DNA of 44,920 nt from a virus. The DNA lies in IMG/VR virus record IMGVR_UViG_3300032731_000385, positions 1 through 44,920 of that record, one strand, 5' to 3'. Position numbers and translations under genes: made by a program. Below, in pieces: positions 13,780 through 38,737 of the stretch. The notes under the pieces are model-generated. The model was not told where the DNA came from, made no database searches, and saw only the letters and a program-made list of their open reading frames with translations. Positions within the stretch are counted from its first letter, which is position 1; each line of letters begins with the position of its first letter.

Positions 13780-13806
13780 ACATGAAATTAATTGAAAGAT
13801 AAAATA

Positions 13807-14274
13807 ATGATAGAATACAGAATTGGTGATGTACTAGCGTCAGATATGGATGTGGTTATGCATGGTTGTAATTGTAAATTAACGATGGGTGCTGGAATAG
13901 CGAGGCAAATTAAAGAGCAATTTCCAAATGCCTATGATGCTGATATAAAAACTGAATCTGGCGATAGATCAAAATTGGGGCATTATACTATAGCAACACA
14001 AAATGGTAAAACGATTATTAATGGATATACCCAATTCAATCCTGGAAAAGATGTTGATTATCAAGCGATACGTAGTGTAATGAAACTAATTAAGAGTAAG
14101 TTAGGAATATCAGTTACTATTGGAATGCCAAGAATCGGCTGTGGAATTGCAGGTGGTGACTGGAATATTGTTGAAAAAATATTGGATGAAGTATTTGATG
14201 ATAGAACAGTTTATGTCTATGACTTTGGTACTCCAGACTGGGCATACGAAGAGGAAAAATGGGTAAAAGTGTAA
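13807..14274 (+). CDS. macro-domain protein (ADP-ribose binding/hydrolysing)
   Basis: 155 aa from the ATG at 13807; a TTG 15 bases upstream is less likely because the family starts at IEYRIGDVL. Motifs HGCNCKLTMGAGIA (residues 19-32) and IGMPRIGCGIAGGDW (104-118) are the ADP-ribose binding loops of macro domains of the Poa1p/ADP-ribose-1''-phosphatase type. Such proteins bind or remove ADP-ribose from proteins, nucleic acids or metabolites. In a phage this could reverse host ADP-ribosylation defences or recycle ADP-ribose; this is inference. Own promoter directly upstream. Confidence 0.85.
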   Translation: MIEYRIGDVLASDMDVVMHGCNCKLTMGAGIARQIKEQFPNAYDADIKTESGDRSKLGHYTIATQNGKTIINGYTQFNPGKDVDYQAIRSVMKLIKSKLGISVTIGMPRIGCGIAGGDWNIVEKILDEVFDDRTVYVYDFGTPDWAYEEEKWVKV

Positions 14275-15144: not shown

Positions 15145-16416
15145 ATGGTTATAGTAGAAACGATCAAACAATTTGAAGATTTTATAGAAAAATATAGACA
15201 GTCCGATTGTATTTTAGTTCCTATATTATCTGATAGGAAATCCCACCCAAAAATAAATAAGCTTTCTTTACTTTATATTCAATTAATTAACGGTGATGAA
15301 TATATTTTACCATTTAATCATATTGATGCTACATGTTTATCTTTGGATCTTTTATATGATTTAAATTTTGATAATAAAAAATTCACCTATAATAAAAAAT
15401 TATTAAACCATATAATCAAATTGAATAATGTAATTGATGTGAATTTATTATATTATATGAGCGAAAATGTTATAGCTGATATAGAAAGTACTACGTCAGC
15501 ACATACTTTTTTTGAAACTAAATTTTATATGTATCCTGATATCAATACTATTATTCCACTTATGAAACATGCTGAATATTGTAAAGCTATAGCAACTCAA
15601 ATTTGCATTCATATGAGTACTTATGATATAAACGATAAAGTATTTGAAATTTATAATAATGATATTATTAATTTATTAACTGCTATTGAATCTAATGGTT
15701 TAAAAACAAAGGATGGATATTTATATAGTGAATATAATATTTATACTTCTACCGGTCGACCATCAAATCGGTATGGCGGTATTAATTTCAGTGCATTGAA
15801 TAAAGATGATGGTACTCGAAAACAATTTATTAGTAGATTTAAACGCGGAAAATTGATAGAATTTGATTACGATTCATTTCACATTAGGTTAATAGCGGAT
15901 TTAGTAGGTTATTCATTTCCACCAGATTCCGTACACAAATATATGATGACCCAATATGGAATTAATAATTATGAAGAAAGTAAAACAAAATCATTTAGAT
16001 ATTTATATGGGGGTATACCAAAAGAGATAGCGGAACAAATTCCATATTTTAAATTGGTGAAAGATTATATTGATAAGTTGTATAATAGTTATAATTGTAT
16101 TGGTAAAATAAAAACTCCTATATATTCTAGAGTGTTTTATAAAAAAAATTTTAACAAAATGAATAGAAATAAATTAATGAATTATTTAATTCAAAATATG
16201 GAAACTGAATATAATATGAACATGCTGGCAAATATATTGCCTATGTTAGAACACATGCACAGTAAATTAATATTATATACATACGATAGCTTTTTATTTG
16301 ATTTACATCCAGCCGAACATGATTTAATATTAAAAATTAAACAGGTGTTGGAACATAAAAATATTCCGATTAAAATAAAGCTTGGAAATAATTATCATGA
16401 AATGAGTGATTTTTAA
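15145..16416 (+). CDS. compact family-A DNA-polymerase-like protein
   Basis: 423 aa. The pre-palm signature TSTGRPSNRYGGINFSALNK (201-220) matches the TGRLSS...NLQN region of Pol I. Motif A is FDYDSFHIRL with Asp241; motif B keeps K280-x3-F284-x3-Y288-G289 (KTKSFRYLYGG) but has Tyr where Pol I has Arg four residues before the Lys; motif C is YTYDSF with Asp381 in place of the usual HDE. Both catalytic Asp are therefore present. The N-terminal 160 residues may be a worn exonuclease domain; I see no intact DxE. It coexists with a family-B gp43 in the same genome. It could be a repair or specialised polymerase, or inactive. Confidence 0.75.
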   Translation: MVIVETIKQFEDFIEKYRQSDCILVPILSDRKSHPKINKLSLLYIQLINGDEYILPFNHIDATCLSLDLLYDLNFDNKKFTYNKKLLNHIIKLNNVIDVNLLYYMSENVIADIESTTSAHTFFETKFYMYPDINTIIPLMKHAEYCKAIATQICIHMSTYDINDKVFEIYNNDIINLLTAIESNGLKTKDGYLYSEYNIYTSTGRPSNRYGGINFSALNKDDGTRKQFISRFKRGKLIEFDYDSFHIRLIADLVGYSFPPDSVHKYMMTQYGINNYEESKTKSFRYLYGGIPKEIAEQIPYFKLVKDYIDKLYNSYNCIGKIKTPIYSRVFYKKNFNKMNRNKLMNYLIQNMETEYNMNMLANILPMLEHMHSKLILYTYDSFLFDLHPAEHDLILKIKQVLEHKNIPIKIKLGNNYHEMSDF

Positions 16417-16436: not shown

Positions 16437-17171
16437 ATGAAGATGATATATGAATGTCCTCGCTGTTATGAAACTGTTATTTATAAACAATTCGCAGCGT
16501 ATAACAAGGCACTTTCAAATAAAGTGTTATGTAGAAAATGTAAACAACGTCAATGGCCAAAACCAGTACGCGTTTCTAATTTTGAAAATTGGAAACTCAA
16601 ATATGGCGAAGCATATGCTATTAAAAAATATAAAGCAATGTGTGATAAAATGTCGGTTAATCACCCAGATGTTTCTGGTAAAAATAATCCAATATATGGA
16701 ACAACACGGATATTTACAGATATATGGCGCCGACGATTGGGGAAAGCTAGTAAACGAGTGATTAGAACCCGTGAGTGGTGCACTAAAATTTCTGAAAGTT
16801 TAAAAGGACATTCAGTTTCAGCTGAAGTTCGTTACAAATTAAGGTTATCTCGATTAGCTAGAATACAAACTTCTGGTTGGGTAGTTAATTATAATAAAAC
16901 GGCATGTAAATATTTTGATTGGTTAAATATGTATATGGGCTGGAATGGCCAGCACGCATTAAATGGCGGAGAAAAAATAATTCGCGGTTATTGGTTGGAT
17001 TATTATGAACCAAATTTAAATCTTGTAATTGAATGGGATGAAAAGAGTCATTATAAAAATGGAAATTTATTAGAAAAGGATATAAAACGTCAAACTGAAA
17101 TAATACAAACTATTGGATGTGATTTTTATAGAATACGTCAAGCAACTATGCAAGTTATGGAGGTAAATTAA
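16437..17171 (+). CDS. homing endonuclease with NUMOD3 and EDxHD/PD-(D/E)xK-like nuclease
   Basis: 244 aa. N-terminal zinc finger (CPRC at 8-11, CRKC at 32-35), a NUMOD3-like DNA-binding motif (GKNNPIYG near 81 and WCTKISESLKGHS near 115), then a C-terminal nuclease core with GYWLDYYEPNLNLVIEWDEK (about 195-214) followed by the conserved QTIGCDFYRIR strand. The Asp and the E-x-D-E-K pattern fit the EDxHD/Vsr-like fold used by homing enzymes. No ribosome-binding site; TATATTTAT ends five bases before the ATG. The next gene overlaps its stop (TAATG). Confidence 0.8.
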   Translation: MKMIYECPRCYETVIYKQFAAYNKALSNKVLCRKCKQRQWPKPVRVSNFENWKLKYGEAYAIKKYKAMCDKMSVNHPDVSGKNNPIYGTTRIFTDIWRRRLGKASKRVIRTREWCTKISESLKGHSVSAEVRYKLRLSRLARIQTSGWVVNYNKTACKYFDWLNMYMGWNGQHALNGGEKIIRGYWLDYYEPNLNLVIEWDEKSHYKNGNLLEKDIKRQTEIIQTIGCDFYRIRQATMQVMEVN

Positions 17172-17587
17172 TGAGATTAAATACACAGCTCCTCTGCACG
17201 TTTACTCGCCGGGACCGGTTACATAAAACAATTAATGCCATTATAACAAGTTATGAAATAGTATTTAACAAAATTTATGTTTTACAAAATGAACAAGATT
17301 TCCATCAATTATTGTGTACATATAATATAGAAGAAAATAGAGAAAATTATGTTATAGACGTAGACACGATTTCTTTACATAGGAAAAAGCAAACAAATAC
17401 GTTATATACCATTAACAGTTTAAATGAGATCATACGAAAAGAAAATAACGGGAAACTTGATAAATCATTTCCTATTGAGTGGGAAAATTATAGGAATTGT
17501 ATGTTGTTAACAAACAATGATGGATTTTCAAGAGTACCTACGAGAATTTATATGATTATTGATACAACTACTTGGGGCAAAAATTAA
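17171..17587 (+). CDS. unknown protein, 138 aa
   Basis: Starts at an ATG overlapping the previous stop, with a GGAGG site. Begins MRLNTQLLCTFTRRDRLHKT, then KIYVLQNEQDFHQLLCTYNI. The pattern of a start strand followed by a basic helix vaguely recalls nucleotide-sugar enzymes, but no diagnostic motif is present. It converges on the minus-strand gene whose stop is at 17588, with no spacer or terminator between them. Confidence 0.6.
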   Translation: MRLNTQLLCTFTRRDRLHKTINAIITSYEIVFNKIYVLQNEQDFHQLLCTYNIEENRENYVIDVDTISLHRKKQTNTLYTINSLNEIIRKENNGKLDKSFPIEWENYRNCMLLTNNDGFSRVPTRIYMIIDTTTWGKN

Positions 17588-18034
17588 TTATTTGGAGTTT
17601 ATTGGTTTGAATGAATTACATTTAGTTTCTGGATACCCTGATCCTATTCCGCAATTTCTCCAAGCAACCGTTATAGCTTCACCGGATTTGAGAGACGCAC
17701 AATCACCACATATGCTATGGGCCCAATCCCTTAATGATTGCAGATGTCTCTTTGCATATTCTTTTTTTGTTACTGCTGCCCATTTTTTTGAGAATCCATA
17801 ATATGTTTCAATGGGAATTTCTTGGTGAAGCCAGCTACATTCAAAGCATTTGGGGCATTCTGTAATGGTGACAATACTGCCATGTTTGCCTTGAACTTCA
17901 TCCAACACAAGAATATGCGCTTGCTCATTCCATTTCATAGGTTTTTGTGTAAATCCACAGAACGGGCAGATATCAATCATTTTACGATGATTATAAATTG
18001 TACAATCCCAATTGGATCTGATTTCTTTTTTCAT
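17588..18034 (-). CDS. multi-Cys zinc-binding protein, unknown function
   Basis: 148 aa on the minus strand. CPFC (residues 23-26) and CPKC (60-63) form one probable zinc ribbon; CGDC near 109 and further Cys near 128 and 138 may form a second. Trp-rich. Overlaps the ligase-like gene (ATGA), so cotranslated with it. Possibly a nucleic-acid binding partner, but no family recognised. Confidence 0.65.
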   Translation of the reverse strand: MKKEIRSNWDCTIYNHRKMIDICPFCGFTQKPMKWNEQAHILVLDEVQGKHGSIVTITECPKCFECSWLHQEIPIETYYGFSKKWAAVTKKEYAKRHLQSLRDWAHSICGDCASLKSGEAITVAWRNCGIGSGYPETKCNSFKPINSK

Positions 18035-18633
18035 TAAAATTTATGCCTACCAGTTTTTTTACGAACTTTAAGCATCCAAGTTGATGTACGATTGGATGTA
18101 CGACTGATATCTAAGTTACCTTTTAAATTTTTCATTACTAACCCTTCTAGTTCATCATTTAACACGGCTAATTTGTACGTAGCGTCGAAGTCAGTATTAA
18201 ACTGTTGTGTAATGCTTAAAGGTTTAGTGCCTATTGATAACACAGATTCCAGCAGGGCTCTACGATATTCGAATGATTTATTAATTAATACTTCACCATT
18301 CCAAATATGAACATCATATAAAACTAACATATTGCGAACACCAATAACTTTATTATGTCGCAGTTCACCATCAAATAGATTATAACCCGATGGAAATTTA
18401 GTTGAATTCAGAGCAGTTAACATGTTTTCGTCTGGTGAAAATACTAGCTTTTTTCCATGTCTATCCCAAAATTCGAATTTACCATTGATGTTGTGTAATT
18501 CACACCTACTGCCATTATATTTAAATTCAGCGACCCAATTTGGATCATCACTGACGGTTTGAAATAATGGTTGATCAAGTGTGATCAGTGTTGGTTTTTC
18601 TGGATAAAAATATGTGAGTTTATTTAAGTTCAA
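18034..18633 (-). CDS. ligase-type nucleotidyltransferase core (DNA/RNA ligase-like)
   Basis: 199 aa. The adenylation-domain motifs occur in order: motif I EFKYNGSR with nucleophile Lys38, motif III LFDGEL (87-91), IIIa LVLYDVHIW, motif IV EGLVMK (163-168), motif V WMLKVRKK (186-193). Motif I has Asn for the usual Asp of KxDG. The protein stops after motif V and lacks the OB-fold domain of classical DNA ligases, so it is a minimal enzyme or needs a partner. It probably seals nicks in DNA or RNA. Overlaps both neighbours by 1-4 bases. Confidence 0.75.
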   Translation of the reverse strand: MNLNKLTYFYPEKPTLITLDQPLFQTVSDDPNWVAEFKYNGSRCELHNINGKFEFWDRHGKKLVFSPDENMLTALNSTKFPSGYNLFDGELRHNKVIGVRNMLVLYDVHIWNGEVLINKSFEYRRALLESVLSIGTKPLSITQQFNTDFDATYKLAVLNDELEGLVMKNLKGNLDISRTSNRTSTWMLKVRKKTGRHKF

Positions 18634-19790: not shown

Positions 19791-20564
19791 ATGTCTATAG
19801 ATGCAATCAAGAAAAAGTTAGCAGAGTTACAATCATCCAATACTAGAACAAATAGTCTTTGGAAACCATCACCAGGAGATTCAACCGTACGTATTTTACC
19901 GTATAAATACGATTCCGATTTACCATTTGTTGAATTATATTTTCATTATGATATTAATGGAAAAACATATCTTTCACCAATATCCTTTGGTCGTCCAGAT
20001 CCAATCGAGGAATTCGCTCAGAAATTAAAAACTGCCGGCGGAAGTAAAGAAGATTGGCAATTAGGAAAAAAGATTGAGGCAAAAATGAGAACATTTGCTC
20101 CAATTATCGTTCGGTCTGAAGAAAATGAAGGTGTTAAATTTTGGGGATTTGGTAAACTTGTATACCAAGAATTGCTACAAACAATGGCCGATCCTGATTA
20201 TAGAGGATTAACTGATCCAGTTGATGGTCGTGATATTAAGGTTACGTTTCAAACTGCTGAAGAATTAGGCGCAAACTTTCCAAAAACTACGGTTCGTGCA
20301 CGTCCAGTTATTACTCCATTAACGGATAATAAAGTGTTAGCTCAAAAATTACTTAAGGAACAAAAAGATATTAAGGAAGTATATCAAGAATTATCATATG
20401 AAGACCTTGAAGGTGTACTGGATAAATATCTTAGTGGCGATGAAGGAGTAACTGATGAGCCAGAAACGGTGATTTCTGCAACCGAAATTGATTCTGAAAT
20501 TAATTCTGTTGGAGATGCAACACAGGCTTTTGAAGAATTATTCGATGACAGCGACGACGAGTAA
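19791..20564 (+). CDS. 32: single-stranded DNA-binding protein gp32
   Basis: 257 aa. N-terminus with KKKLAELQSS, the cooperative-binding (LAST-like) region; core with NSLWKPSPGDSTVRILPYKY, FVELYFHYDI and FWGFGKLVYQELL typical of gp32; and a very acidic C-terminal tail ending FEELFDDSDDE that contacts replication partners. The Cys residues that bind zinc in T4 gp32 are absent, as in some marine T4-like relatives. It coats ssDNA for replication and recombination and is followed by a terminator, then uvsX. Confidence 0.92.
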   Translation: MSIDAIKKKLAELQSSNTRTNSLWKPSPGDSTVRILPYKYDSDLPFVELYFHYDINGKTYLSPISFGRPDPIEEFAQKLKTAGGSKEDWQLGKKIEAKMRTFAPIIVRSEENEGVKFWGFGKLVYQELLQTMADPDYRGLTDPVDGRDIKVTFQTAEELGANFPKTTVRARPVITPLTDNKVLAQKLLKEQKDIKEVYQELSYEDLEGVLDKYLSGDEGVTDEPETVISATEIDSEINSVGDATQAFEELFDDSDDE

Positions 20565-20616: not shown

Positions 20617-21714
20617 ATGAAAAATACTCGTGATGAATTAGCGGACGTACTTGCTACGTCGATCAATAAACAGTTTAAAAATATGAAAGCTGTGTATTTT
20701 TTAGGTGGTAAAGATAAAACCCCGACTGATATTACTGATTTTATTTCTACCGGATCATCATTATTAGATTTAGCAATTTCAAATAAGGAACGTGGTGGAG
20801 CGCCAGTAGGTAGAATAGTTGAATTGCAAGGTATGGAATCCAGTGGAAAAAGTTTAATTGGTGCTCATATACTTGCGGAAACTCAAAAACGTGATGGTAT
20901 TGGTGTCTATATAGATACTGAAACGGCAGTTAGTACGGAATTTTTAAAAGCTATTGGTGTTGATATTGATTCAATGTTATATGCACATTTAGAAACTGCA
21001 GAAGAAATTTTTGAGACTATAGAAAGTATAATAGTTAAAGTTCGGGAAGCTGATAAAAATAGATTAGTTACAATTTTAGTTGATAGTTTATCTGGTGCAT
21101 CTACCAAAATTGAAATGGAATCTGATTATGATAAAGATGGGTGGGCAACCGCTAAAGCAATTATAATTTCAAAGGCATTACGTAAAATTACTCAGATGAT
21201 AGGTAAACAAAGAATTTTATTGGTGTTTACAAATCAATTACGGCAAAAATTAGGAGTAATGTTTGGTGATCCATGGACAACAAGTGGAGGTAAAGCTCTA
21301 GGTTTTCATTCTTCGGTCCGCGTTAGATTAAGTTCAATTAAAAAGATTATTGATAAAGATAAAAATGTAATAGGCATCCGGACTAAAGCGATTATTACTA
21401 AAAATCGAGTAGGCCCACCATTTAGACAGGCTGAATTTAATATTTATTTTGATAGTGGCATTCGTGATAGAGATAGTTGGCTAGATTTTTTAAAGCAGCA
21501 CAAATTAATTTCAGCGGCAGGTGCTTGGTATACGATTAATTATAAAAATAAAGATTTGAAATTTTTATCCAAAGATTTCGAAAAATTGCTAGATCAAACA
21601 GACGGTTTAGCAGATCATTTATATAGTGAAATATGTAAATATGCTATTTTAAAATACAAAACTGAGGATTTAGGAATTGATGACATTTTTGTAGATGATG
21701 AAATAATAGAATAG
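20617..21714 (+). CDS. uvsX: UvsX, RecA-like recombinase
   Basis: 365 aa, similar to T4 UvsX (391). Walker A GMESSGKS (72-79), Walker B-like LVTILVDSLSG, and the ssDNA-loop region with TTSGGKALGFHSSVRVRL. It forms filaments on ssDNA and drives strand exchange and recombination-dependent replication with gp32 and gp41. TTAGGAGAA gives a good ribosome-binding site. Next gene starts one base after its stop. Confidence 0.92.
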   Translation: MKNTRDELADVLATSINKQFKNMKAVYFLGGKDKTPTDITDFISTGSSLLDLAISNKERGGAPVGRIVELQGMESSGKSLIGAHILAETQKRDGIGVYIDTETAVSTEFLKAIGVDIDSMLYAHLETAEEIFETIESIIVKVREADKNRLVTILVDSLSGASTKIEMESDYDKDGWATAKAIIISKALRKITQMIGKQRILLVFTNQLRQKLGVMFGDPWTTSGGKALGFHSSVRVRLSSIKKIIDKDKNVIGIRTKAIITKNRVGPPFRQAEFNIYFDSGIRDRDSWLDFLKQHKLISAAGAWYTINYKNKDLKFLSKDFEKLLDQTDGLADHLYSEICKYAILKYKTEDLGIDDIFVDDEIIE

Positions 21715-21715
21715 T

Positions 21716-22762
21716 ATGGATTATTTTTCTATTTTAGAACAAATCAAAAAAGAACATAAGGAAGCCCCTGAATTAACGGCTAATTCTCGTACATTAATTG
21801 TTGATGGATTAAATCTATTTCTTAGGGTGTTTTCGGCCGTACCAAGTATTAATGAGGACGGAATTCATGTTGGTGGTGTATCTGGGTTTTTACGTTCATT
21901 AGCTTATTCAATTAAGCAATTAGCACCAACTCGTTGTATAATAGTATTCGATGGAAGAGGTGGCTCTAAAAGGCGAAGAAAACTTTATCCTGAATATAAA
22001 AATAATCGTAAATCAACACAACGATTTAATAGGTATAATGAATACTCAACAGTTGAAGATGAGCGGCAATCTAGAATGGTTCAATTAGCCAGGTGTATTG
22101 AATATCTAGATATGCTACCAGTATCAATTTTGATAGTTGATAATGTTGAAGCGGATGATGTAATCGCATATTTAGCCACTGATGTTTTAAAAGATGAAGT
22201 AATTATAATGTCAACAGATCAGGATTTTTTACAATTAATTAATGATAAGGTTTCGGTCTGGTCTCCCATAAGAAAAAGGTTATATACTCCAGAAAAGGTT
22301 AAAGAAGATTATGAAATCCCAGTTAGTAATTTTCTAATGTATAAGATATTAATGGGAGACCAATCCGACAACATTCCAGGAATCCCAGGAATGGGGCAAA
22401 AAACATTAATTAAACGTTTTCCAGAAATATTATCTGAAAATGTTACTATTAAGCAATTATTTGACACAGCTGAAAAACATACCGATTTAAAAGTTTGTCA
22501 AGCACTATTAGAAAGTAAATCACAATTAAAACTTAATTATGTATTAATGAGATTGGATGAAACATTACTTAATAGTAACGCCAAATTAAAAATATTAAAT
22601 GTTGTTAATGATTGTATACCTATATTAGATAAACCAAAATTTCAACTTTTATTTATGCGAGATAAACTATGGTCTGCCATTCCAAATTTAGATGGGTTTC
22701 TATCACAAAATTTTTATCGCATGAATAAATTTGCGAAATTATATAATGAAAGGAATAAATAG
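21716..22762 (+). CDS. 5'-3' exonuclease / RNase H, FEN-1 family
   Basis: 348 aa. Acidic residues in LIVDGLNLFLRVF (about 27-39), IVFDGRGGSKRRRKLYPEYK, NVEADDVIAYLA and IMSTDQDFLQLI bind the two metals; MGDQSDNIPGIPGMGQKT is the H3TH DNA-binding motif. T4 RNase H (305 aa) has the same layout and removes RNA primers and flaps on lagging strands. It lies between uvsX and gp41, and its stop overlaps a small GTG-started gene (TAGTG). Confidence 0.88.
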   Translation: MDYFSILEQIKKEHKEAPELTANSRTLIVDGLNLFLRVFSAVPSINEDGIHVGGVSGFLRSLAYSIKQLAPTRCIIVFDGRGGSKRRRKLYPEYKNNRKSTQRFNRYNEYSTVEDERQSRMVQLARCIEYLDMLPVSILIVDNVEADDVIAYLATDVLKDEVIIMSTDQDFLQLINDKVSVWSPIRKRLYTPEKVKEDYEIPVSNFLMYKILMGDQSDNIPGIPGMGQKTLIKRFPEILSENVTIKQLFDTAEKHTDLKVCQALLESKSQLKLNYVLMRLDETLLNSNAKLKILNVVNDCIPILDKPKFQLLFMRDKLWSAIPNLDGFLSQNFYRMNKFAKLYNERNK

Positions 22763-22949: not shown

Positions 22950-24332
22950 ATGGATAATTTTACATCATATGGGCCAACTTTTCAAATTAAAGTTATATCG
23001 GCATTATTAAGCGATCGTCGATTTTTTCAAACTATTGCTGATATTTTACAGCCGGACATGTTTGATAGTCAATCAAATATATTTTTAGTTCAGACCATAC
23101 GTACATATTTTTATGAATATAAAGCTTTGCCTACGTTAGAAGTTCTTAAAATTAAAATTAATGAATTGGATAATGAAATTTTAAAAATTTCAGTTATAGA
23201 AAATCTTAAAACTGCGTGGAAAAATATTAACGCAGAAGATTTACAGTTTATTAAAGACGAAGCACTTAAATTTTGTAAAAATCAAAAAATGAAAGCAGCA
23301 ATAATTCAATCGGTTGATCTATTGGAATTAAAAAATTATGATCAAATTAAACATATTATTGATGATGCTATGAGAGCAGGAGAAGCTCGAGATTTAGGAC
23401 ATGATTATATTCCTGGATTAGAAGAGCGATTATTAGAAAGTAGTCGTGCTACTATTGCAACTCCATGGGATCCTATAAATGAAATTTTAGATGGAGGTTT
23501 AGGGGCTGGAGATGAAGGAATTATCGTCGCCCCAGCCGGAATTGGAAAATCATGGATGTTACAAGCAATTGGTGCATGGGCAGTTAAATTAGGAAAAACT
23601 GTTATTCATTATACTCTTGAATTAAAACAAAATTATGTTGGATTACGATACGATACTATTTTTAGTAAAATAACCACTGCTAATATAAAATATTATCAAG
23701 ACGAGGTTGATAAAATTATCAAGCAATTGTCAGGTCAGCTACGTATTAAATATTATCCAACAAAATCTGCATCCGTACAAACATTATTTTCTCATTTAAA
23801 ACAATTAGAATTACAAGAAATTGTCCCTGATATGATTATAGTTGATTATGCTGATTTATTACAATATTCGGAACTTAATGCAAAAGATTTACGCACAGAT
23901 GAAATATTAGGGCAGATATATACGGGATTACGAGGAATGGCTGGAGAATTTGATGTACCATTATGGACAGCAAGCCAGGCAAATAGGTCTTCGTTAGAAG
24001 ATGATATTATTCAAGCCGGAAAAATCGCCGCATCATATGAAAAATTAATGGTAGCAGATTTTGTTATGAGTATTCAGCGACGGGTTGCTGATAAAATTGC
24101 AAACACCGCTAGATGTCATGTTATAAAAAATCGTTATGGTAGGGATGGCATTACATTTCCAATGAAAATGGACACTAATACAGGAACCATGGAAATTTAT
24201 AATGAAACTTCACTTGATGGGAAGGCCCAACAGGGAAAAATGAATAATAGTGAAGAATATTTACGAAAACAATTATCTAGTAGATATCAGGCTATGAAAC
24301 AAGATGAAAAAACCGTAGAAGGGTTTGAATAA
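22950..24332 (+). CDS. 41: replicative DNA helicase gp41 (DnaB type)
   Basis: 460 aa, like T4 gp41 (475). N-terminal helical domain to about 145, then RecA-type motor with Walker A APAGIGKS (194-201), Walker B PDMIIVDYADLL, a TASQANRSS switch and the Arg-finger region KNRYGRDGITFPM. The hexamer unwinds DNA at the fork. The gene is intact, without the split intein found in some related phage helicases. There is only a weak ribosome-binding site. Confidence 0.92.
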   Translation: MDNFTSYGPTFQIKVISALLSDRRFFQTIADILQPDMFDSQSNIFLVQTIRTYFYEYKALPTLEVLKIKINELDNEILKISVIENLKTAWKNINAEDLQFIKDEALKFCKNQKMKAAIIQSVDLLELKNYDQIKHIIDDAMRAGEARDLGHDYIPGLEERLLESSRATIATPWDPINEILDGGLGAGDEGIIVAPAGIGKSWMLQAIGAWAVKLGKTVIHYTLELKQNYVGLRYDTIFSKITTANIKYYQDEVDKIIKQLSGQLRIKYYPTKSASVQTLFSHLKQLELQEIVPDMIIVDYADLLQYSELNAKDLRTDEILGQIYTGLRGMAGEFDVPLWTASQANRSSLEDDIIQAGKIAASYEKLMVADFVMSIQRRVADKIANTARCHVIKNRYGRDGITFPMKMDTNTGTMEIYNETSLDGKAQQGKMNNSEEYLRKQLSSRYQAMKQDEKTVEGFE

Positions 24333-26179: not shown

Positions 26180-26644
26180 ATGCAAACTATTTCTAAAACA
26201 TTTACATTTGATTACGCACACCGCCTTAAAGGTGCGGATGGAAATTTTTATAATAAAGAAAAATGTGGTTCACTGCATGGACACACTGGTAAGGTAATAA
26301 TTACAGTAGCCAGAAAAAATTTTACGGGCCGTCGTAGTAATCTAGAGATGGAACAAGACAATTTTGGATTTGTAATGGATTATGGATTATTGTCTCACAT
26401 TAAAAATTGGATAGATGATAATTGGGATCACGCAACGTTAGTTGAAAACCACGATACTGAATTATTAAATTTTTTAGAAACGTCTGGAGATAGGCATTAT
26501 GTAATGACAGACAGAGCAAATTCAGAAGCGATGGTGGAAGTGATGTTAACCCAATGTACTCAATTATTACCAGATTTTGTGAAAGTAGTAAAATTAGAAC
26601 TTTGGGAAACTCCTAAATCGTTTTGTACTTGGGAGGATAAATGA
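26180..26644 (+). CDS. queD: QueD, 6-carboxy-tetrahydropterin synthase
   Basis: 154 aa. Second step to 7-deazaguanine: converts dihydroneopterin triphosphate to carboxytetrahydropterin. Zinc ligands His14 (DYAH), His33 and His35 (SLHGH) and catalytic Cys29 (KCGSLHGH) are present; WDHATL and LELWETP complete the active site. AAGGAG site. First gene of the deazaguanine operon that runs to DpdA. Confidence 0.88.
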   Translation: MQTISKTFTFDYAHRLKGADGNFYNKEKCGSLHGHTGKVIITVARKNFTGRRSNLEMEQDNFGFVMDYGLLSHIKNWIDDNWDHATLVENHDTELLNFLETSGDRHYVMTDRANSEAMVEVMLTQCTQLLPDFVKVVKLELWETPKSFCTWEDK

Positions 26645-26647
26645 AAA

Positions 26648-26776
26648 ATGATTAGGAAAATAAATTTATATAAACAAGGAAATTTAAAATTAATTGCATT
26701 AACTGCAAAATCTTTTGTAAATAAAAAATATAAAAATCAAATTATAAATCAATTAAAATTGTGGGGAATGTGGTGA
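26648..26776 (+). CDS. possible 42-aa basic peptide
   Basis: ATG at 26648 reads MIRKINLYKQGNLKLIALTA and ends at 26776, overlapping the start of queE. Basic, with no motif. It fills the queD-queE gap, but lacks a clear ribosome-binding site, so it may not be a real gene. Confidence 0.3.
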   Translation: MIRKINLYKQGNLKLIALTAKSFVNKKYKNQIINQLKLWGMW

Positions 26777-27510
26777 AAGTAATAGAAACATTTGTAAGCA
26801 TTCAAGGTGAAGGTAAATATCTCGGTGCGCCATCATTATTTATTCGTACAACGGGATGTAATTTAAGATGCGCATGGAAAAATCCTGATGGGAGTATAAC
26901 AAAATGTGATACACCATATAGTTCGTGGGAACCTGAAAATGGAACGATATTTGATCCAATGAGTGCTGATGAGATTGATGCGTGGGTATACCACGCTGTG
27001 ATTACAGGCGGTGAACCAATGATACAAAAAGATATTGTTGAAATAACTAACCAGTTAGTTGATGATGGATTTACCGTAACAATTGAAACGAATGGAACAA
27101 TCTATAATCCAGGATTTAATCCAACCGATGAAGTATTTTATTCATTTTCACCAAAACTTAGTAATAGTAATGCGTTGAATAGTTCTATGCATATGAAAAA
27201 TAATCATTCTGTCAGTGAAAATATCTTAAAATATTGGAATGATATTAAAACAGCGAATAAATATACTAATTGGAATGCATGGAAACATCATATGCAATTA
27301 AAATTTGTAGTGAATTCTGTAGATGATTTTATGGAAATTGAAAGTAATTATGGTCAATTTAGAACAATAATTTATATCATGCCACAAGGTATAACCACTC
27401 AACAATTTGAAGATAAACAGAATTGGATAGTTGATAAATGTATTGAGTATGGATATAATTATACGCCACGATTACATATTGATTTGTTTGGTAATAAAAG
27501 AGGAATATAA
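26773..27510 (+). CDS. queE: QueE, 7-carboxy-7-deazaguanine synthase
   Basis: Radical-SAM enzyme of about 245 aa that rearranges carboxytetrahydropterin to 7-carboxy-7-deazaguanine. GTG at 26773 gives VKVIETFVSIQGEGKYLG, the usual QueE N-terminus, with GGGG upstream; a GTG at 26761 would add four residues. The 4Fe-4S Cys are C29 and C33 (CNLRC) and C45 (KCDTPYSSW), with an 11-residue insertion before the third Cys; this spacing is seen in some QueE. AVITGGEPMIQ is the SAM-binding motif. Confidence 0.87.
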   Translation: MKVIETFVSIQGEGKYLGAPSLFIRTTGCNLRCAWKNPDGSITKCDTPYSSWEPENGTIFDPMSADEIDAWVYHAVITGGEPMIQKDIVEITNQLVDDGFTVTIETNGTIYNPGFNPTDEVFYSFSPKLSNSNALNSSMHMKNNHSVSENILKYWNDIKTANKYTNWNAWKHHMQLKFVVNSVDDFMEIESNYGQFRTIIYIMPQGITTQQFEDKQNWIVDKCIEYGYNYTPRLHIDLFGNKRGI

Positions 27511-27513
27511 AGA

Positions 27514-28623
27514 ATGAAAAAAATACGTGTCGCAATTGCAGGTGTCGGTAATTGTGCATCATCATTAGTGCAGGGTGTTGAATACTATAAACAACAAAAC
27601 CAGCAAGATGGTGTAATGATGCCACTTATAGGAAAGTATAAACCGACGGATATAGAATTTGTAGTTGCATTTGATATTGATCAACGAAAAGTTAATATGT
27701 CATTATCAGAAGCGATATATGCCAAACCAAATTGTGCTATGAAATTTGTGGATTCAGTTAATACTAGTGCGCATGTGTATATGGGGCACCAATTAGATGG
27801 AGTAGCAGATCATATGAAAGAATATGATGAATCACAGGCGTTTCGTGTAGCTAGTGAAGAAGCTCCGGTAGATGTTGTTGAAATATTAAATCAAAATAAT
27901 GTAGACGTATTGATTTCGTATATGCCAGTTGGAAGTGAGATTGCAGCTAAATTTTATGCAGAATGTGCTATTAAAGCTAAAGTTGGATTTGTAAATAATA
28001 TGCCAGTATTTATAGCATCCGATCCTGAATGGGCTAGAAAATTTGAAGATGCTAAAATTCCGATAATTGGTGATGATATTAAATCACAAGTTGGTGCTAC
28101 CATAGTTCATCGGGTATTGACCCGATTGTTTGGAGACCGCGGATATAATTTAGATAGAACATATCAATTAAATACTGGTGGTAATACTGACTTTTTAAAT
28201 ATGTTAGAACGAACTCGTTTAAAATCTAAAAAGAAATCAAAAACGCAATCTGTAAAGAGTCAACTAGATATTGATATTTCACCAGATGATATTCATATAG
28301 GCCCAAGTGATTATGTTCCATGGCAAAAAGATAATAAAGTATGTTTTATAAGAATGGAAGGCCGTGGATTTGCTGGTGCACCAATTGAATTAGAATTACG
28401 GTTGAGTGTTCAAGATTCTCCTAATTCAGCGGGCGTTGTTATAGATGCTATTAGATATGTTAAATTAGCAATGGATAATGCAATATACGGTAATTTGGAA
28501 GCACCATCAGCATACTTAATGAAATCACCAGCAATTCAAATTCGTGACAGTGAAGCATTTGAATTATGTCAGAAATTTGCTAAAACTGGTACTTTAAGAG
28601 ATTCACAAATACCAAGGTGGTAG
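27514..28623 (+). CDS. ino1: myo-inositol-1-phosphate synthase
   Basis: 369 aa, of the short bacterial/archaeal type. It converts glucose-6-phosphate to inositol-3-phosphate using bound NAD. The Rossmann motif VAIAGVGNCASSLVQG (6-21) and the signature NNMPVFIASDPEWARKF ... DDIKSQVGATIVHRVLTRL (about 164-206) are hallmark, as is YQLNTGGNTDFLNM. It is unusual in a phage and sits inside the deazaguanine operon, between QueE and a methyltransferase, with no gap. Role unknown: it may feed inositol into DNA or glycan modification, or redirect host metabolism. Confidence 0.85.
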   Translation: MKKIRVAIAGVGNCASSLVQGVEYYKQQNQQDGVMMPLIGKYKPTDIEFVVAFDIDQRKVNMSLSEAIYAKPNCAMKFVDSVNTSAHVYMGHQLDGVADHMKEYDESQAFRVASEEAPVDVVEILNQNNVDVLISYMPVGSEIAAKFYAECAIKAKVGFVNNMPVFIASDPEWARKFEDAKIPIIGDDIKSQVGATIVHRVLTRLFGDRGYNLDRTYQLNTGGNTDFLNMLERTRLKSKKKSKTQSVKSQLDIDISPDDIHIGPSDYVPWQKDNKVCFIRMEGRGFAGAPIELELRLSVQDSPNSAGVVIDAIRYVKLAMDNAIYGNLEAPSAYLMKSPAIQIRDSEAFELCQKFAKTGTLRDSQIPRW

Positions 28624-29220
28624 ATGCATAAACGAATAGATAATGGTACACCACAAATAATAATAGATTTATTTCAATTTCCATATTTTCAATTTGGAAA
28701 TCAATATGGTGCAAATAATCTAATACTTTTAGATATTGCGTGTGGTAATGGACTTCAAACACCATTTTTAAAATCTAAATTTAAACATGTTATTTCTATG
28801 GATATTGATCCTCAAAACGTTGATGTTATACAAGCTTCAATCACTGATATTCCACTAGAAAATAAAATGGTTGATGTATCATTTTCATTTGAAACTATAG
28901 AACATATAAACCAGGATCACCAGCACAAAGCTATACAGGAACTTATTAGAGTGACTAAGGATATAATAATTATAGGAAGTGTAAATGAAACTGGTGTAGA
29001 TTTTATTGATGGGCATGAAATTTATAAAGCAATAAATGATAAAAATTCATACCATATATGTGAATTGAATCACGATACATTTCCAAGCTTAGTAAATAAT
29101 TATAAGGATCGGCTTGATATATCATATTATCAAACAGTTTATGAAGATAAATTAATGATACACCCCGGACTTCAATCTCACGCATATGTAAATTATGCGG
29201 TATGTAAATTAAAGGTATAA
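28624..29220 (+). CDS. SAM-dependent methyltransferase
   Basis: 198 aa, class I fold. LLDIACGNGLQT (about 35-46) is motif I; VISMDIDPQNV carries the acidic SAM-ribose residue; FSFETIEHINQ is motif IV/V of the Methyltransf_11 type. Substrate not predictable from sequence. It starts directly after the inositol synthase and ends directly before QueC, so it probably acts in the same modification pathway, possibly on the modified base or on inositol phosphate. Confidence 0.75.
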   Translation: MHKRIDNGTPQIIIDLFQFPYFQFGNQYGANNLILLDIACGNGLQTPFLKSKFKHVISMDIDPQNVDVIQASITDIPLENKMVDVSFSFETIEHINQDHQHKAIQELIRVTKDIIIIGSVNETGVDFIDGHEIYKAINDKNSYHICELNHDTFPSLVNNYKDRLDISYYQTVYEDKLMIHPGLQSHAYVNYAVCKLKV

Positions 29221-30024
29221 ATGAAAATTGTTATTTTATATAGTGGTGGATTAGATAGTTTTTTAATGTATAAATGGGCAAATGTTTATTATCCTGATGC
29301 AGATATTAAATGTATATTTTATACGCACGGTCATGATTCAGAGCAATCAGAACTTAAATCACTTCCCAATTTTGTTGAGGTTCGTAATATAGACTGGTTA
29401 GATGCATCACATCAACCAGTATCAAAAAAAAGCGATCCATTTGCAGGTAATATTTATATTCCCGGAAGAAATTTAATATTTGGTGCATTAGCAGCTTGTC
29501 AGGAATTAGCGGATGAAATATGGATGGGAACTGTTGTAGATGAAGATAATCCTCAAGCTACCGATAAAAATGAAAAATTTAGACATGATACAAGTGAATT
29601 ATTAAGTTATGTATTAAGTCCATTTATTGATGATGTAAAAATTAAATTTCCATTCGTGGATGCAAGCATGACAAAATTAGATTGCGTACTCTGGGCCTTA
29701 AAACATAATGTTACAAAGGAAGAATTAATACATACCACAAGTTGTTGGCATAATATTAATGGCACTCCATGTGGTGAATGCAAACAATGTTTAAAACGGA
29801 TGCTTGTATTTGGAATAACTGATATTACAGAATCCTATATTGTACACCCTTTAAATTCTAGTATTCAACGAAAATTAATATGTGATTATATAACGGCATA
29901 TTTAACTAATCCTGATGTAAATGTAGATGAATTAAATATGGTAAACATGATATCACAGTATTTTAACCAACCACTATCTGATATACAATTACAAATGAGG
30001 AAACTAAATGAAACCAACGATTAA
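29221..30024 (+). CDS. queC: QueC, 7-cyano-7-deazaguanine (preQ0) synthase
   Basis: 267 aa. ATP-dependent conversion of carboxydeazaguanine to preQ0. PP-loop SGGLDS (8-13) and the zinc site SCWHNINGTPCGECKQC near the C-terminus, with its four Cys, are diagnostic. PGRNLIFGALAA is also typical. It overlaps folE by 17 bases. Confidence 0.9.
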   Translation: MKIVILYSGGLDSFLMYKWANVYYPDADIKCIFYTHGHDSEQSELKSLPNFVEVRNIDWLDASHQPVSKKSDPFAGNIYIPGRNLIFGALAACQELADEIWMGTVVDEDNPQATDKNEKFRHDTSELLSYVLSPFIDDVKIKFPFVDASMTKLDCVLWALKHNVTKEELIHTTSCWHNINGTPCGECKQCLKRMLVFGITDITESYIVHPLNSSIQRKLICDYITAYLTNPDVNVDELNMVNMISQYFNQPLSDIQLQMRKLNETND

Positions 30025-31917: not shown

Positions 31918-33690
31918 ATGTACATGAATATCCATTACGATTATCAATCTAAACAAATTCATATATGGGATGATGAACATGGATATGCTATGTTTCCATT
32001 TAAAAAATATGGATATATAAAAGATCCGAATGGTAGATATAGTTCATTATATGGTGATAGATTGAGAAAAGCATATAGTTGGGATTATAATTTACAAGCA
32101 GATGATCTTTTTGAAAGTGATATCCATCCTGATGTTCGTTATTTAATTGATACGTATTTGTTATCAGACGAACCATCCACTGGTCATATCGTATTACCAA
32201 TTGACATTGAAGTTGAAGTAACCGATGGATTTCCACATGCGCATATTGCGGCTAATAAAATTACTTCTATAGCATTATATGATTCTGCACACGATTTATA
32301 TTACGCATTGGTATTAAATGAGGATAAAGATGTAGATGATTACACCGATGGTAATCAAATTGTGGAATTATTTGGTTCAGAGGCAGAATTATTAAACCGA
32401 TTTTATGCTAAATATTTAGAAATCCGGCCAACTATTATCACCGGCTGGAATAGTAATAATTTTGATATTCCATACCTGTTCAATAGAGCATGTAAAATTT
32501 TAGGTGAAACCATAGCAAAATGTTTATCTCCAATTGGTATAGTTTATAAAGATAAATTTAAAGGTGATATTGTTATAGCTGGAGTATCTTGTTTGGATTA
32601 TTATTTATTATATAAAAACTTTACGTACAATGAATTAGATTCATATAAATTAGATTCTGTTGCCGTGTATGAAAAATTGGGACAGCAAAAAATTAAATAC
32701 TCTGGTACACTTGATGACTTGCGTGTAAATGATTTACGGCAGTTTATTAAATATAATATTCAAGATGTTAGATTAATTAATCTTTTGGATATTAAATTAA
32801 ATCTAATAGAAATTGCTATAGGTATTTGTCATATCGGGCACGTTCCGTATGAAAGTATTTATATGCCAAGTAGATATTTAGATGGTGCTTTATTAGTATA
32901 TCTTAAAAAATTAGGCATAGTAGCTCCAAATAAAAATCCTGAAGGTAGAAATCAAATGACAAATGAGGGTCAATATGAGGGAGCTCATGTACAAAAACCG
33001 CAAGCCGGACGATACGATTGGGTGTATGATTTAGATATTACATCAATGTATCCATCTATTATTATGTCTCTTAATATTTCACCAGAAACTAAAACTGGTA
33101 AAGTTATAGGTTGGAAACCAAATGATTTAGTGAGTTCCTCGGTTAAAACCTATACAATAATTTTAAATGACCGTGAACAGGGCACGTTTACTAAAACTGA
33201 ACTGTCTGAGTTTTTACGGGATAATAATTTATCCATTTCTGCAAATGGTATTTTATATAATACTGAAAAAATGGGATTGATGTCATCTATATTAGTGAAA
33301 TGGTTTGATGACCGGGTAGATTTTAGGAATTTAGCAAAGAAATTTGCGGATGAAAATGATGATGTTAAATATCAGTATTTTAATAAACGCCAACATATTC
33401 AAAAGATTTTGTTAAATAGTTTATATGGTGTATTGGCATTACCAGTGTTTAGATTTTATGATTTGGATAATGCCCTGGCTGTAACCAGCACGGGGCAAAG
33501 TTTAATTGGATTCACTAAAAAGATTGCTAATCATTTTTATAACATGGAGCTGGGATCAAAAATAGAATTAGACTTAGAAGATGGCACAACAAAATCCATA
33601 TATGAAAATCAGTCCGTAACTGTTATACGGAGCGGAAAACAAATAAATATTTTAGGAAATAATATAAAAAATACCGATCAAATTTTATAA
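31918..33690 (+). CDS. 43A: gp43 DNA polymerase, large N-terminal fragment
   Basis: 590 aa of a family-B polymerase. Exo I PIDIEV (D96, E98), Exo II NSNNFDIPY (to D183), Exo III YNIQDVRLI (D283); polymerase motif A DLDITSMYPSII (371-382) and motif B KILLNSLYGVLALP (496-509). It ends before motif C. The last 45 residues (SKIELDLEDGTTKSI... KNTDQIL) resemble the beta-rich end of a Hint/intein N-half, but lack the TxxH block. With the pieces at 33813 and 33881 it should rebuild gp43, which replicates the genome and proofreads. Confidence 0.88.
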   Translation: MYMNIHYDYQSKQIHIWDDEHGYAMFPFKKYGYIKDPNGRYSSLYGDRLRKAYSWDYNLQADDLFESDIHPDVRYLIDTYLLSDEPSTGHIVLPIDIEVEVTDGFPHAHIAANKITSIALYDSAHDLYYALVLNEDKDVDDYTDGNQIVELFGSEAELLNRFYAKYLEIRPTIITGWNSNNFDIPYLFNRACKILGETIAKCLSPIGIVYKDKFKGDIVIAGVSCLDYYLLYKNFTYNELDSYKLDSVAVYEKLGQQKIKYSGTLDDLRVNDLRQFIKYNIQDVRLINLLDIKLNLIEIAIGICHIGHVPYESIYMPSRYLDGALLVYLKKLGIVAPNKNPEGRNQMTNEGQYEGAHVQKPQAGRYDWVYDLDITSMYPSIIMSLNISPETKTGKVIGWKPNDLVSSSVKTYTIILNDREQGTFTKTELSEFLRDNNLSISANGILYNTEKMGLMSSILVKWFDDRVDFRNLAKKFADENDDVKYQYFNKRQHIQKILLNSLYGVLALPVFRFYDLDNALAVTSTGQSLIGFTKKIANHFYNMELGSKIELDLEDGTTKSIYENQSVTVIRSGKQINILGNNIKNTDQIL

Positions 33691-33715
33691 AATATATTTA
33701 TTAGTAAGATATAAA

Positions 33716-33823: not shown

Positions 33824-33881
33824 AAATATAAGGAAATCTAATGTCAGTGTAGATGATTATTGTCTCTACATTGACACGTGA
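33813..33881 (+). CDS. gp43 micro-fragment ending inside motif C
   Basis: ATG at 33813 reads MKIKNIRKSNVSVDDYCLYIDT and stops with TGA at 33879-33881. DDYCLYIDT is the first half of family-B motif C (Y-x-DTDS). The TGA overlaps the ATG of the next fragment (TGATG). Removing the five bases GTGAT at 33878-33882 would restore DYCLYIDTDSIFF in one frame. Confidence 0.5.
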   Translation: MKIKNIRKSNVSVDDYCLYIDT

Positions 33882-34762
33882 TGGATTCAATTTTTTTTAG
33901 CGCAGGACCGATAATTCAAAAGCGATTCCCAAATCATACATTTTCTGATATAGTATTATCAAAGCATATTTTAGATATTACATCAGAGGTACAGTTATAT
34001 TTAAATAATTCATATGATTATTTTGCACAAAAGTTTTGCAATCTAGATAAACATAGGTTTGAAATTAAACAGGAGGTTATAGCTAAATCCGCGTTATTTA
34101 TTACAAAAAAACGATATGCTATGCGAATAATTAATGATAATGGAGTACGTGTAAATAAATTATTGATAAAAGGAATGGATATTGTTAGGAGTAATTTTGC
34201 TACTGGATTTAGAACTGTATTACAAGCAGTTGTTGAAGATGTTTTAGCTAAGGTACCGAAAGAAAAAATTGATACACGAATTTTAGAGTTTAGAAAAAAT
34301 ATGGCATTAATGGATATCCGAGAACTTGCTACTCCGACGGGGGTTAATGGAATAAAAAAATATACTAAATCTAGGATTTCAAAATCATTAAGTAAATTTA
34401 CATCTAGTTCCGGAAAATCTGTCATGAGTCAATTTGTTAAAGGTGCACCGGCACATGTTAAAGCGGCAATTGCATATAATGATTTATTACGGGATATGAA
34501 ATTGAATAATAAATATTCATATATTCGGAGTGGTGATAAAATCAGACACGTTTATTTAAAATCAATTAATCCATATAAAATAGATTCATTAGCGTTCCGG
34601 GGAGATGAAGACCCCGAGGAAATTATGTCTTTTATTAAAGAATATATTGATATTGATAAAACATATGATCGTCAATTAAAGAAAAAATTTAGTTCGGTAT
34701 ATACCGTTTTACATTGGAGTACGCCAGTAAATAAAAAATTTACGTTAGAACGATTTTTTTAG
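33881..34762 (+). CDS. 43B: gp43 DNA polymerase, C-terminal fragment
   Basis: About 293 aa from ATG 33881 (GTG at 33878 possible). It starts MDSIFFSAGP, the second half of the catalytic DTDS motif, so the essential motif-C Asp is residue 2. ITKKRYAMRII is the conserved KKRY DNA-binding motif; the rest is the thumb. It ends KKFTLERFF, like the clamp-binding peptide at the end of T4 gp43. It must assemble with 43A. Start overlaps the micro-fragment stop. Confidence 0.85.
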   Translation: MDSIFFSAGPIIQKRFPNHTFSDIVLSKHILDITSEVQLYLNNSYDYFAQKFCNLDKHRFEIKQEVIAKSALFITKKRYAMRIINDNGVRVNKLLIKGMDIVRSNFATGFRTVLQAVVEDVLAKVPKEKIDTRILEFRKNMALMDIRELATPTGVNGIKKYTKSRISKSLSKFTSSSGKSVMSQFVKGAPAHVKAAIAYNDLLRDMKLNNKYSYIRSGDKIRHVYLKSINPYKIDSLAFRGDEDPEEIMSFIKEYIDIDKTYDRQLKKKFSSVYTVLHWSTPVNKKFTLERFF

Positions 34763-34855: not shown

Positions 34856-35581
34856 ATGATGAATAAAAATACTTTAGTCAGATTTATTTCTAAATACCAT
34901 TTAGGAGGTAATGTGAATTCTGTTGCGTTTGCGAGTTCAGGAGAAAAACTTGGGACGAGATTTCAAACTGAAGATGAAACGGTTATTGGTGAAGTTGTTT
35001 TAAATAGCTGGAAATATACTACTTTAAATTTTGGTATCTATGATACAGAGCAGCTATTAAAGATAGTTGGAATATTAGATAACGATATTAATATTAATTT
35101 AAAAATGGCAGGTGATAAACCAGTATCACTTGAATTATCTGATGGATTCATTAAGGCTAACTGTTTACTATCTGATTTATCAATCATTCCAAAAGTTAGA
35201 GCATTAAAAAAATTACCGGAATTTGAATTAGAATTAGAACTAGATAAAAAATTTATTGATGCATTTATCGCAGGAAAACAAGCGTTGGCAGATGAACCAT
35301 CATTTACCATTGTTGCAAAAGAAGATGGGATTCAATTTGTAATTGGATATTCCTCTTTAAATACTAATAGAATTACTTTACCAGTAAAATCTATGAATGA
35401 TAATAAGATTGATAATGTTTCATTTAATGCAAGGATATTTAGAGAAATATTAATTGCGAATAAAGAATGTGAAGTTGCTACAATGAAAGTTAGTAGCGCA
35501 GGATTAGCGAAGCTTGAATTTATAGTGGATGATTTTGTTTGCGTCTATTATGCGGTACCGCTTGAGGATTTTGAAGATTAA
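34856..35581 (+). CDS. 45: sliding clamp gp45
   Basis: 241 aa (T4 gp45: 228). It has the clamp pattern: LNFGIYDTEQLLKIVGIL, SLELSDGFIKANCLLSDL, then FELELELDKKFIDAFI opening the second domain and CVYYAVPLEDFED at the end. The trimeric ring tethers gp43 to DNA and, in T4, also activates late transcription. AAAGGA site upstream; ATG at 34856 or 34859. Follows the polymerase pieces. Confidence 0.85.
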   Translation: MMNKNTLVRFISKYHLGGNVNSVAFASSGEKLGTRFQTEDETVIGEVVLNSWKYTTLNFGIYDTEQLLKIVGILDNDININLKMAGDKPVSLELSDGFIKANCLLSDLSIIPKVRALKKLPEFELELELDKKFIDAFIAGKQALADEPSFTIVAKEDGIQFVIGYSSLNTNRITLPVKSMNDNKIDNVSFNARIFREILIANKECEVATMKVSSAGLAKLEFIVDDFVCVYYAVPLEDFED

Positions 35582-37813: not shown

Positions 37814-38737
37814 GTGAATAAATCTGAACATACAATTTGGTGTGAAAAATATCGTCCAACTGAGTTAGAATCATATATAGGAAATGATCATTTAAAAGAA
37901 AAAGTTAAAATTTATCTTGAAAGTGGTGATGTTCCACACCTGTTATTATTTGGTCCAGCGGGTACAGGCAAAACTACTCTTGCTAGAATTTTAAAAAACA
38001 CCATTGATTGTGATGGTATGTATGTTAATGCGAGTGATAAAGGTGGAGTTGACTTTATTCGTACTGAAATCATACCATTTGCTAGCTCACAAGGATTTGC
38101 CGATTTAAAATTGGTTATTCTTGATGAAGCAGATTTTTTGACACCACAAAGTCAAGCTGCGCTAAGAAATGCTATGGAAACATTTAGTAGAACTACTCGA
38201 TTTATTTTAACATGTAATTATGTTGAACGTATAATTGATCCTATTCAATCTAGATGTCAAACATTTCAAGTGATTCCACCATCTCGCAAAGAGGTAGCTT
38301 TACATGTCAAACATATTCTTGATGTTGAAAATATTACATATAATTTAGAAGATGTTGCACTTAACATTAATAGTGGATATCCGGATATTAGGCGAGTAAT
38401 TAATTCTTTACAGCGTCAAACTATTAATGGAAATCTTGTGGTTGATAAACAATCAGTTGTTGAGAATGATTATAAATTAAAATTATTAGATATATTAAAA
38501 ACGCAGGATAAGAAAACTGCATTTAAAAATATTAGACAGTTATTGGCTAATGCAAAAATGCAAGATTATACTGAAGTATATAGGTTATTATTTGACATGG
38601 TTAATGATTGGGGTAAAGGTCATATCGCCGAATGTATCTTAGAATTGGCTGATGGTCAATATAAAGAATCACAGGTTATAGATCACGAAATTAATTTCAT
38701 GGCTTGCATGATAAAAATTCTTAATGCTATTAAATAA
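37814..38737 (+). CDS. 44: clamp loader large subunit gp44
   Basis: 307 aa AAA+ ATPase. WCEKYRPTELESYIG at the start, Walker A GPAGTGKT (47-54), Walker B LVILDEADFL, sensor TRFILTCNY and the SRC arginine-finger motif (IQSRCQ). Loads gp45 onto primer ends with gp62. GTG start at 37814. In T4 gp62 is adjacent; here it is about 2 kb downstream, after endonuclease and other genes. Confidence 0.92.
   Translation: MNKSEHTIWCEKYRPTELESYIGNDHLKEKVKIYLESGDVPHLLLFGPAGTGKTTLARILKNTIDCDGMYVNASDKGGVDFIRTEIIPFASSQGFADLKLVILDEADFLTPQSQAALRNAMETFSRTTRFILTCNYVERIIDPIQSRCQTFQVIPPSRKEVALHVKHILDVENITYNLEDVALNINSGYPDIRRVINSLQRQTINGNLVVDKQSVVENDYKLKLLDILKTQDKKTAFKNIRQLLANAKMQDYTEVYRLLFDMVNDWGKGHIAECILELADGQYKESQVIDHEINFMACMIKILNAIK

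Follow-up and report, generated by a model that had tools for sequence, protein, structure and literature searches.

The window, i.e., the whole analysed stretch of 44,920 nucleotides (IMG/VR virus record IMGVR_UViG_3300032731_000385), carries at positions 15145..16416 on the plus strand a compact family-A DNA polymerase gene, assigned to divPolA1 by homology, fold and alignment with Pol I. Its ORF encodes 423 aa without internal stops, and there is no long ORF opposite it on the other strand. Downstream on the same strand lie the genes for a 138-aa orphan protein with the motif HRKKxTNTLYTIN (17171..17587), conserved downstream of divPolA1 and hereafter called the companion, a gp32-like single-strand DNA-binding protein (SSB; 19791..20564), a UvsX/RecA-like recombinase (20617..21714), a FEN-type 5'-3' exonuclease (21716..22762; phrog_107) and a DnaB/gp41-like replicative helicase (22950..24332). 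Further along the plus strand follow a family-B polymerase gp43, encoded as an N-terminal (31918..33690) and a C-terminal part (33878..34762), a gp45-like sliding clamp (34856..35581) and a gp44-like clamp loader (37814..38737). The gp43 gene is interrupted near motif C, with extra sequence between its two ORFs (33600-33890). Four related records (L095-L098) gave near full-length gp43 matches, and gp43 is also in pieces in record LR756508; the interruption may be a natural split, an inserted element or an assembly error.

The conserved part of this neighbourhood is the downstream operon of companion, SSB, UvsX, FEN and DnaB. The four replication genes lie downstream of the polymerase in the window and in loci L002, L003 and L004, and among the 43 of 80 IMG/VR loci with at least 6 kb of downstream sequence the companion was found in 43, SSB and UvsX in 41 each, FEN in 40 and DnaB in 35, with the order companion-SSB-UvsX-FEN in 40. 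When the 33 loci with at least 8 kb downstream are considered, L006 lacked all four replication genes, L009 lacked FEN and DnaB, and L027 and L036 had no DnaB within the available stretch. Apart from the companion, none of the window's neighbouring genes at 12-19 kb (macro, ligase-like, DUF932 and others) was found in any of 83 related loci. Conservation beside the macro-domain cluster, which the initial annotation had put forward for checking, therefore did not hold (macro gene in 0/83).

The remaining genes of the window are described here for completeness. The 244-aa ORF between polymerase and companion (16437..17171, plus strand) is not conserved in related loci, and its nuclease-like product weakly matches a methyl-directed restriction enzyme model (E 9.6e-8). 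In most IMG/VR loci (68), a variable protein of 322-825 aa (e.g., L017:3460-5520) is encoded between polymerase and companion; it is not present in the window, which has the nuclease-like ORF there, nor in phages immuto and Mel-JY01, and a Pfam search with three of its members gave no match. Upstream of the polymerase, a macro-domain protein (13792-14274) matches the DarG antitoxin model (E 2.5e-17) and phrog_335, which makes counter-defence against DNA ADP-ribosylation by DarT a possible function. A 199-aa ORF on the opposite strand within the replication region (18034-18633) matches the ATP-dependent DNA ligase domain (PF01068) only in part and recurs in 0/83 related loci. The 26180-31778 region encodes QueD, QueE-like, QueC and FolE proteins and a weakly TGT/DpdA-like protein, a set probably responsible for 7-deazaguanine DNA modification, and also includes a myo-inositol-1-phosphate synthase-like phage protein (27514-28623; PF01658, phrog_33138). 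HNH/homing-endonuclease-like ORFs are located at 252-1721 and 39409-40284 (PHROG matches) and at 43620-44438 (recognised by eye only).

Profile searches with the single window polymerase gave little: its match to Pfam DNA_pol_A (PF00476; E 4.8e-5, 22.9 bits) is below the curated cut-off of 34.3 bits, PHROG and NCBIfam searches returned no match (the phrog_47 primase included), and phmmer against PDB sequences found matches at chance level only. With its relatives the signal was clearer. A 72-row set was assembled from the window, 70 of 80 IMG/VR loci and one (L087) of three loci from metagenome-assembled genomes (MAGs), leaving out duplicate, partial or short loci; 41 of the 72, window included, match PF00476 at E<=0.01 (best 3.6e-13), one relative matches phrog_17 'DNA polymerase' (2e-10), and the 72-relative profile searched against PDB sequences retrieved Pol I structures, namely Taq (5o7t, E 4e-4), Bst and Klenow. 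By these comparisons the window polymerase is homologous to family A, though divergent. In tblastn, 18 of 50,697 phage records matched it, six over at least 80% of its length: Mel-JY01, LR756508 (484 kb) and four immuto records, one of them a RefSeq copy. For the other 12 the match spanned 41-63%, mostly in genes annotated as ordinary DNA polymerases. Since the product of immuto gene 1 is homologous over the full length (E 9e-40, 98% covered), the window gene is almost certainly a further member of the known divPolA1 family.

According to the accessible part of its description, divPolA1 was defined in 2024 in 14 phages, with immuto and the phages MW353175-7 listed among them, by an inactivated exonuclease, a truncated thumb and retained palm residues, by its occurrence as a second polymerase in addition to a regular one of family A, B or C, and by conserved replication genes downstream (Virol J 2024;21:200, PMC11348598). 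The coexistence of two polymerase families in one genome, regarded as unusual in the initial annotation, is real as far as the presence of family-B gp43 is concerned, but the combination had already been published as divPolA1. PolB is present in 6/8 divPolA1 records, and immuto has a full-size PolA of 777 aa alongside divPolA1. Going by titles and abstract openings, no functional study of the family was found in the literature.

The family is common in IMG/VR. Scanning with the single window protein recovered no relatives there; they were obtained with a four-sequence alignment as the query, and the pattern scan yielded at least 552 relatives among the 600 matching stretches listed. Of 142 pattern stretches in genomes of bacteria and archaea, three encode relatives, all on MAG contigs which are probably phage. 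All 80 of the best IMG/VR loci have frames ending in a stop with none inside. Together with the window and three phage records they form the 84-sequence set used below, which includes near-duplicates and four short members (L033, L077, L079, L080) and has a median pairwise identity of 39%.

Residue correspondence between the window polymerase and E. coli Pol I was read from an alignment (MAFFT) bridged by 84 relatives. Kept are D705 (D241), D882 (D381), R668 (R205), H734 (H264), K758 (K280), F762 (F284), Y766 (Y288), N845 (N346) and Q849 (Q350); altered are R754 (Y276), the steric gate E710 (H246), S707 (D243) and H881-D-E883 (Y380-D-S382). On the plus strand, the alignments place TGRPSN with R205 (residues 203-208) at 15751..15768, motif A, DYDSFHIR, with the metal Asp D241, D243 and the steric-gate H246 (241-248) at 15865..15888, motif B with Y276 in place of R754 (276-289) at 15970..16011, and motif C, YDS, with the second metal Asp D381 (380-382) at 16282..16290. 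Identical in 84/84 sequences are T203, R205, D241, D243, H246, K280, F284, Y288, G289, Q350, E353, T354, Y380, D381 and D386; H264 and R248 are conserved in 83 and Y276 in 81, and position 382, the third residue of motif C, is Ser in 70 and Ala in 14. The dN/dS of the polymerase ranged from 0.06 to 0.30 (median 0.16, 115 pairs). With 84 homologues keeping the same residues at such a median dN/dS, the polymerase signatures are not due to chance. The loss of the motif-B Arg and the replacement of HDE by YDS, both noticed in the initial annotation, were borne out, as was a family-A polymerase with both metal Asp residues, for which Pol I alignment, fold and homologues agree; the changes at E710 and S707 were absent from it.

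Because the catalytic residues are invariant, the frames intact and dN/dS low, it is very probable that the gene is kept for catalysis, with an altered nucleotide pocket, and the window polymerase is very likely a competent nucleotidyltransferase. Judged from the alignment, the steric-gate His in place of Glu is the most unusual feature of the family, breaking a highly conserved family-A rule; together with R754 to Tyr it could mean lowered or altered activity. That the protein might serve the replisome only as a structural subunit without catalysis, as loss of the R754 and E883 equivalents might suggest, is highly improbable given that both metal Asps and the equivalents of K758, F762, Y766, R668 and Q849 are kept in 84/84.

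An AlphaFold2 model built from the 72-row alignment (pLDDT 94.6, pTM 0.91) contains palm and fingers. Foldseek matched it to Klenow (1kfd, E 1.8e-17, TMq 0.77) among 275 PDB matches at E<=0.001, and VIA superimposed model residues 1-420 on Bst 301-875 (4f3o; Z 29.4, rmsd 3.4, 390 residues aligned). With the palm predicted and the catalytic Asp residues kept in 84/84 homologues, neither of the findings that the initial annotation had named as contrary to a polymerase was obtained. Because the model matches the Klenow and Bst folds, the protein is best described, on the predicted structure, as a shrunken Klenow-type enzyme with exonuclease-like N-terminal domain, palm and fingers. The compactness noted earlier is real, and most of the shortening falls on the exonuclease/thumb part, since 205 residues precede R205 in the window against 345 in Klenow (start 324 to R668), while 218 against 260 follow it. 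Residues 1-110 (15145..15474, plus strand; the limit is approximate) probably form a vestigial 3'-5' exonuclease-like domain, in which the motif I acids D355/E357 are replaced by P26/L28; for motifs II and III the MAFFT alignment with Pol I is unreliable, as in the whole N-terminal half. The G185-R205 spacing is 19-37 residues in the 84 sequences against 123 for G544-R668 in Pol I, with the anchor chosen by eye. The segment lengths, along with the accessible part of the published divPolA1 description, indicate that the thumb is truncated.

The companion seems to be an obligate partner of the polymerase. It is present in 8/8 divPolA1-carrying records, and the phage records that contain it are exactly the six with full-length divPolA1, which really represent three lineages. 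The pattern HRKK..N..Y..N..N is invariant over 60 companion sequences (60 of the 68 found). In the reverse direction, divPolA1 was found at 28/28 companion loci when at least 4.5 kb of upstream sequence was present, at 11/25 with 1.5-4.5 kb and at 0/27 with less; judging from contig names, 16 of the 28 are on contigs already in the first set, so only 12 count as new evidence. Neither the 122 polymerase ORFs nor the 149 companion ORFs included a fusion of the two proteins. Pfam, PHROG and NCBIfam contained no family of note for the companion, and its profile matched PDB sequences only at E>=0.12. Its model (pLDDT 92.0) gave nothing in Foldseek at E<=0.001 and a best VIA Z of 6.1 over 71 residues of an N-terminal ferredoxin/ACT-like half; as modelled, the companion has no clear structural relative.

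Co-divergence of the polymerase with operon genes was analysed by partial Mantel tests on protein distances. With 45 loci and five genes, r was 0.55 for polymerase-FEN, 0.31 for polymerase-companion, 0.07 for polymerase-SSB, 0.02 for polymerase-UvsX and 0.60 for SSB-UvsX. A second analysis included DnaB and left out duplicates (26 loci, six genes; p, Kimura, tree and rank distances, respectively). Here r was 0.51, 0.45, 0.49 and 0.32 for polymerase-FEN, 0.36, 0.37, 0.47 and 0.33 for polymerase-DnaB (about equal to FEN in the tree and rank measures), 0.25, 0.21, 0.05 and 0.14 for polymerase-companion, -0.02, 0.03, -0.13 and 0.01 for polymerase-SSB and -0.13, -0.11, -0.03 and -0.03 for polymerase-UvsX. 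SSB and UvsX, which are partners in T4, correlated with each other at 0.31-0.60 over both analyses. These correlations, from a small sample of few related genomes, suggest that the polymerase co-diverges with FEN and the helicase and not with the SSB-UvsX pair. Their p values are permutation-based and uncorrected for multiple testing. FEN does not adjoin the polymerase, so plain linkage would predict otherwise.

In Pol I a single chain carries both a polymerase and a FEN-type nuclease, and here the FEN and the Klenow-like remnant are encoded separately within one operon. We propose that the two would make up a bipartite, or split, Pol I. The FEN would remove lagging-strand RNA primers and flaps, divPolA1 would fill the short gap as a low-processivity second polymerase acting behind the fork, and a ligase would seal it; bulk synthesis would be left to gp43, or to the 777-aa PolA in immuto. 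The companion would aid primer-template or replisome binding in place of the missing thumb. This whole explanation, companion included, is the best available one and comes close to, but short of, an even call, and the FEN-coupled gap-filling role is put forward tentatively, with the chances leaning somewhat against it. FEN is far more widespread than divPolA1 (relatives in 1,514/50,697 phage records; for SSB, 10 records), which speaks against gap filling, and T4 fills its lagging-strand gaps with gp43, so there is no strict need for another enzyme. What is at stake is a widespread polymerase family that has become a fixed part of the replication operon in many large environmental phages which already own a full replicase, and polymerase, companion and FEN together raise the question of whether Pol I was reinvented piecemeal in phages.

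A repair or bypass role, as raised in the initial annotation, may still apply. In its explicit form, an enzyme with an open pocket, deficient in exonuclease and truncated in the thumb, would bypass damaged or modified template bases, e.g., 7-deazaguanine. The loss of exonuclease motif I, the status as an additional polymerase beside an exonuclease-bearing gp43, and the queC/D/E, folE and DpdA-like genes of the window, with dpdA also in immuto, are consistent with it. But the gene sits in the core replication operon and not among repair genes, and it is FEN and helicase, not UvsX, that track the polymerase. The window DpdA-like query matches 2/8 records, window included; this single hit among the seven others does not favour handling of modified DNA, as weak evidence, because the query missed immuto's own annotated DpdA. 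We regard translesion synthesis as unlikely. Less likely again is extension of 3' ends in UvsX-made D-loops, by which the enzyme would initiate recombination-dependent replication and then hand over to gp43: sharing an operon with SSB and UvsX (41/43 loci) fits such a role, and the near-zero partial correlation with both in every measure does not.

The steric-gate His and YDS/YDA motif might also permit the use of rNTPs, so that the enzyme would make or extend short primers of RNA or mixed composition and the companion would serve as a substitute thumb. The His replaces E710 in 84/84 sequences, the thumb is not of normal size, and a helicase is encoded in the same operon. The equivalent residue of Bst Pol I, E658, keeps ribose out, and its change to Ala (E658A) reduces discrimination against rNTPs, going by the accessible part of that study (PMC7200780). 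On the other side, the closest folds and profiles are DNA polymerases, the F762 position is F284, not Tyr, and a separate gp61-like primase (phrog_47) is encoded in 5/8 divPolA1 records, including immuto, Mel-JY01 and LR756508, the three records lacking it being virus contigs of unrated completeness. An rNTP-using polymerase is accordingly a doubtful candidate. The presence of this primase likewise weakens the idea that the protein is itself the primase, for which the steric-gate His, YDS and the helicase in the operon had spoken. Just as doubtful is the notion that divPolA1 pairs with the companion as a two-subunit polymerase, the companion taking the place of the thumb and the His relaxing or altering sugar selection; if true, the phage would own a polymerase dedicated to primer ends that contain ribonucleotides, unlike every known family-A enzyme.

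Among known systems, T7-type single-subunit RNA polymerases resemble the window polymerase in the third residue of motif C (HDS in T7 RNA polymerase), but their N-terminal part is much larger and they were absent among the PDB sequence matches listed. The Pol I Klenow and Bst large fragments share its overall fold and motifs A, B and C; the window polymerase is about 180 residues shorter, has lost the exonuclease motif I acids and has His, Asp and Tyr for E710, S707 and R754 and YDS for HDE, so it departs from a canonical Pol I. The divPolA2 of barbaviruses, as far as its accessible description goes, is likewise a divergent second PolA without a normal thumb in a PolB phage, but is set apart by its own N-terminal domain and variable neighbourhood. 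Agreement is closest with the divPolA1 of immuto and its relatives, in size, full-length homology, palm residues, loss of exonuclease motif I, short thumb, status as a second polymerase and replication genes downstream, as given in the accessible part of the publication. Nothing categorical separates them: the window's regular polymerase is of family B in two ORFs, and macro, ligase-like and nuclease-like genes are extras around its divPolA1. The main text of that publication makes no mention of a steric-gate histidine, and its Fig. 4b may show the companion (Virol J 2024;21:200). Added here to the published account of the family are its spread in IMG/VR, the invariant pocket set, the orphan companion and the co-divergence with FEN and helicase.
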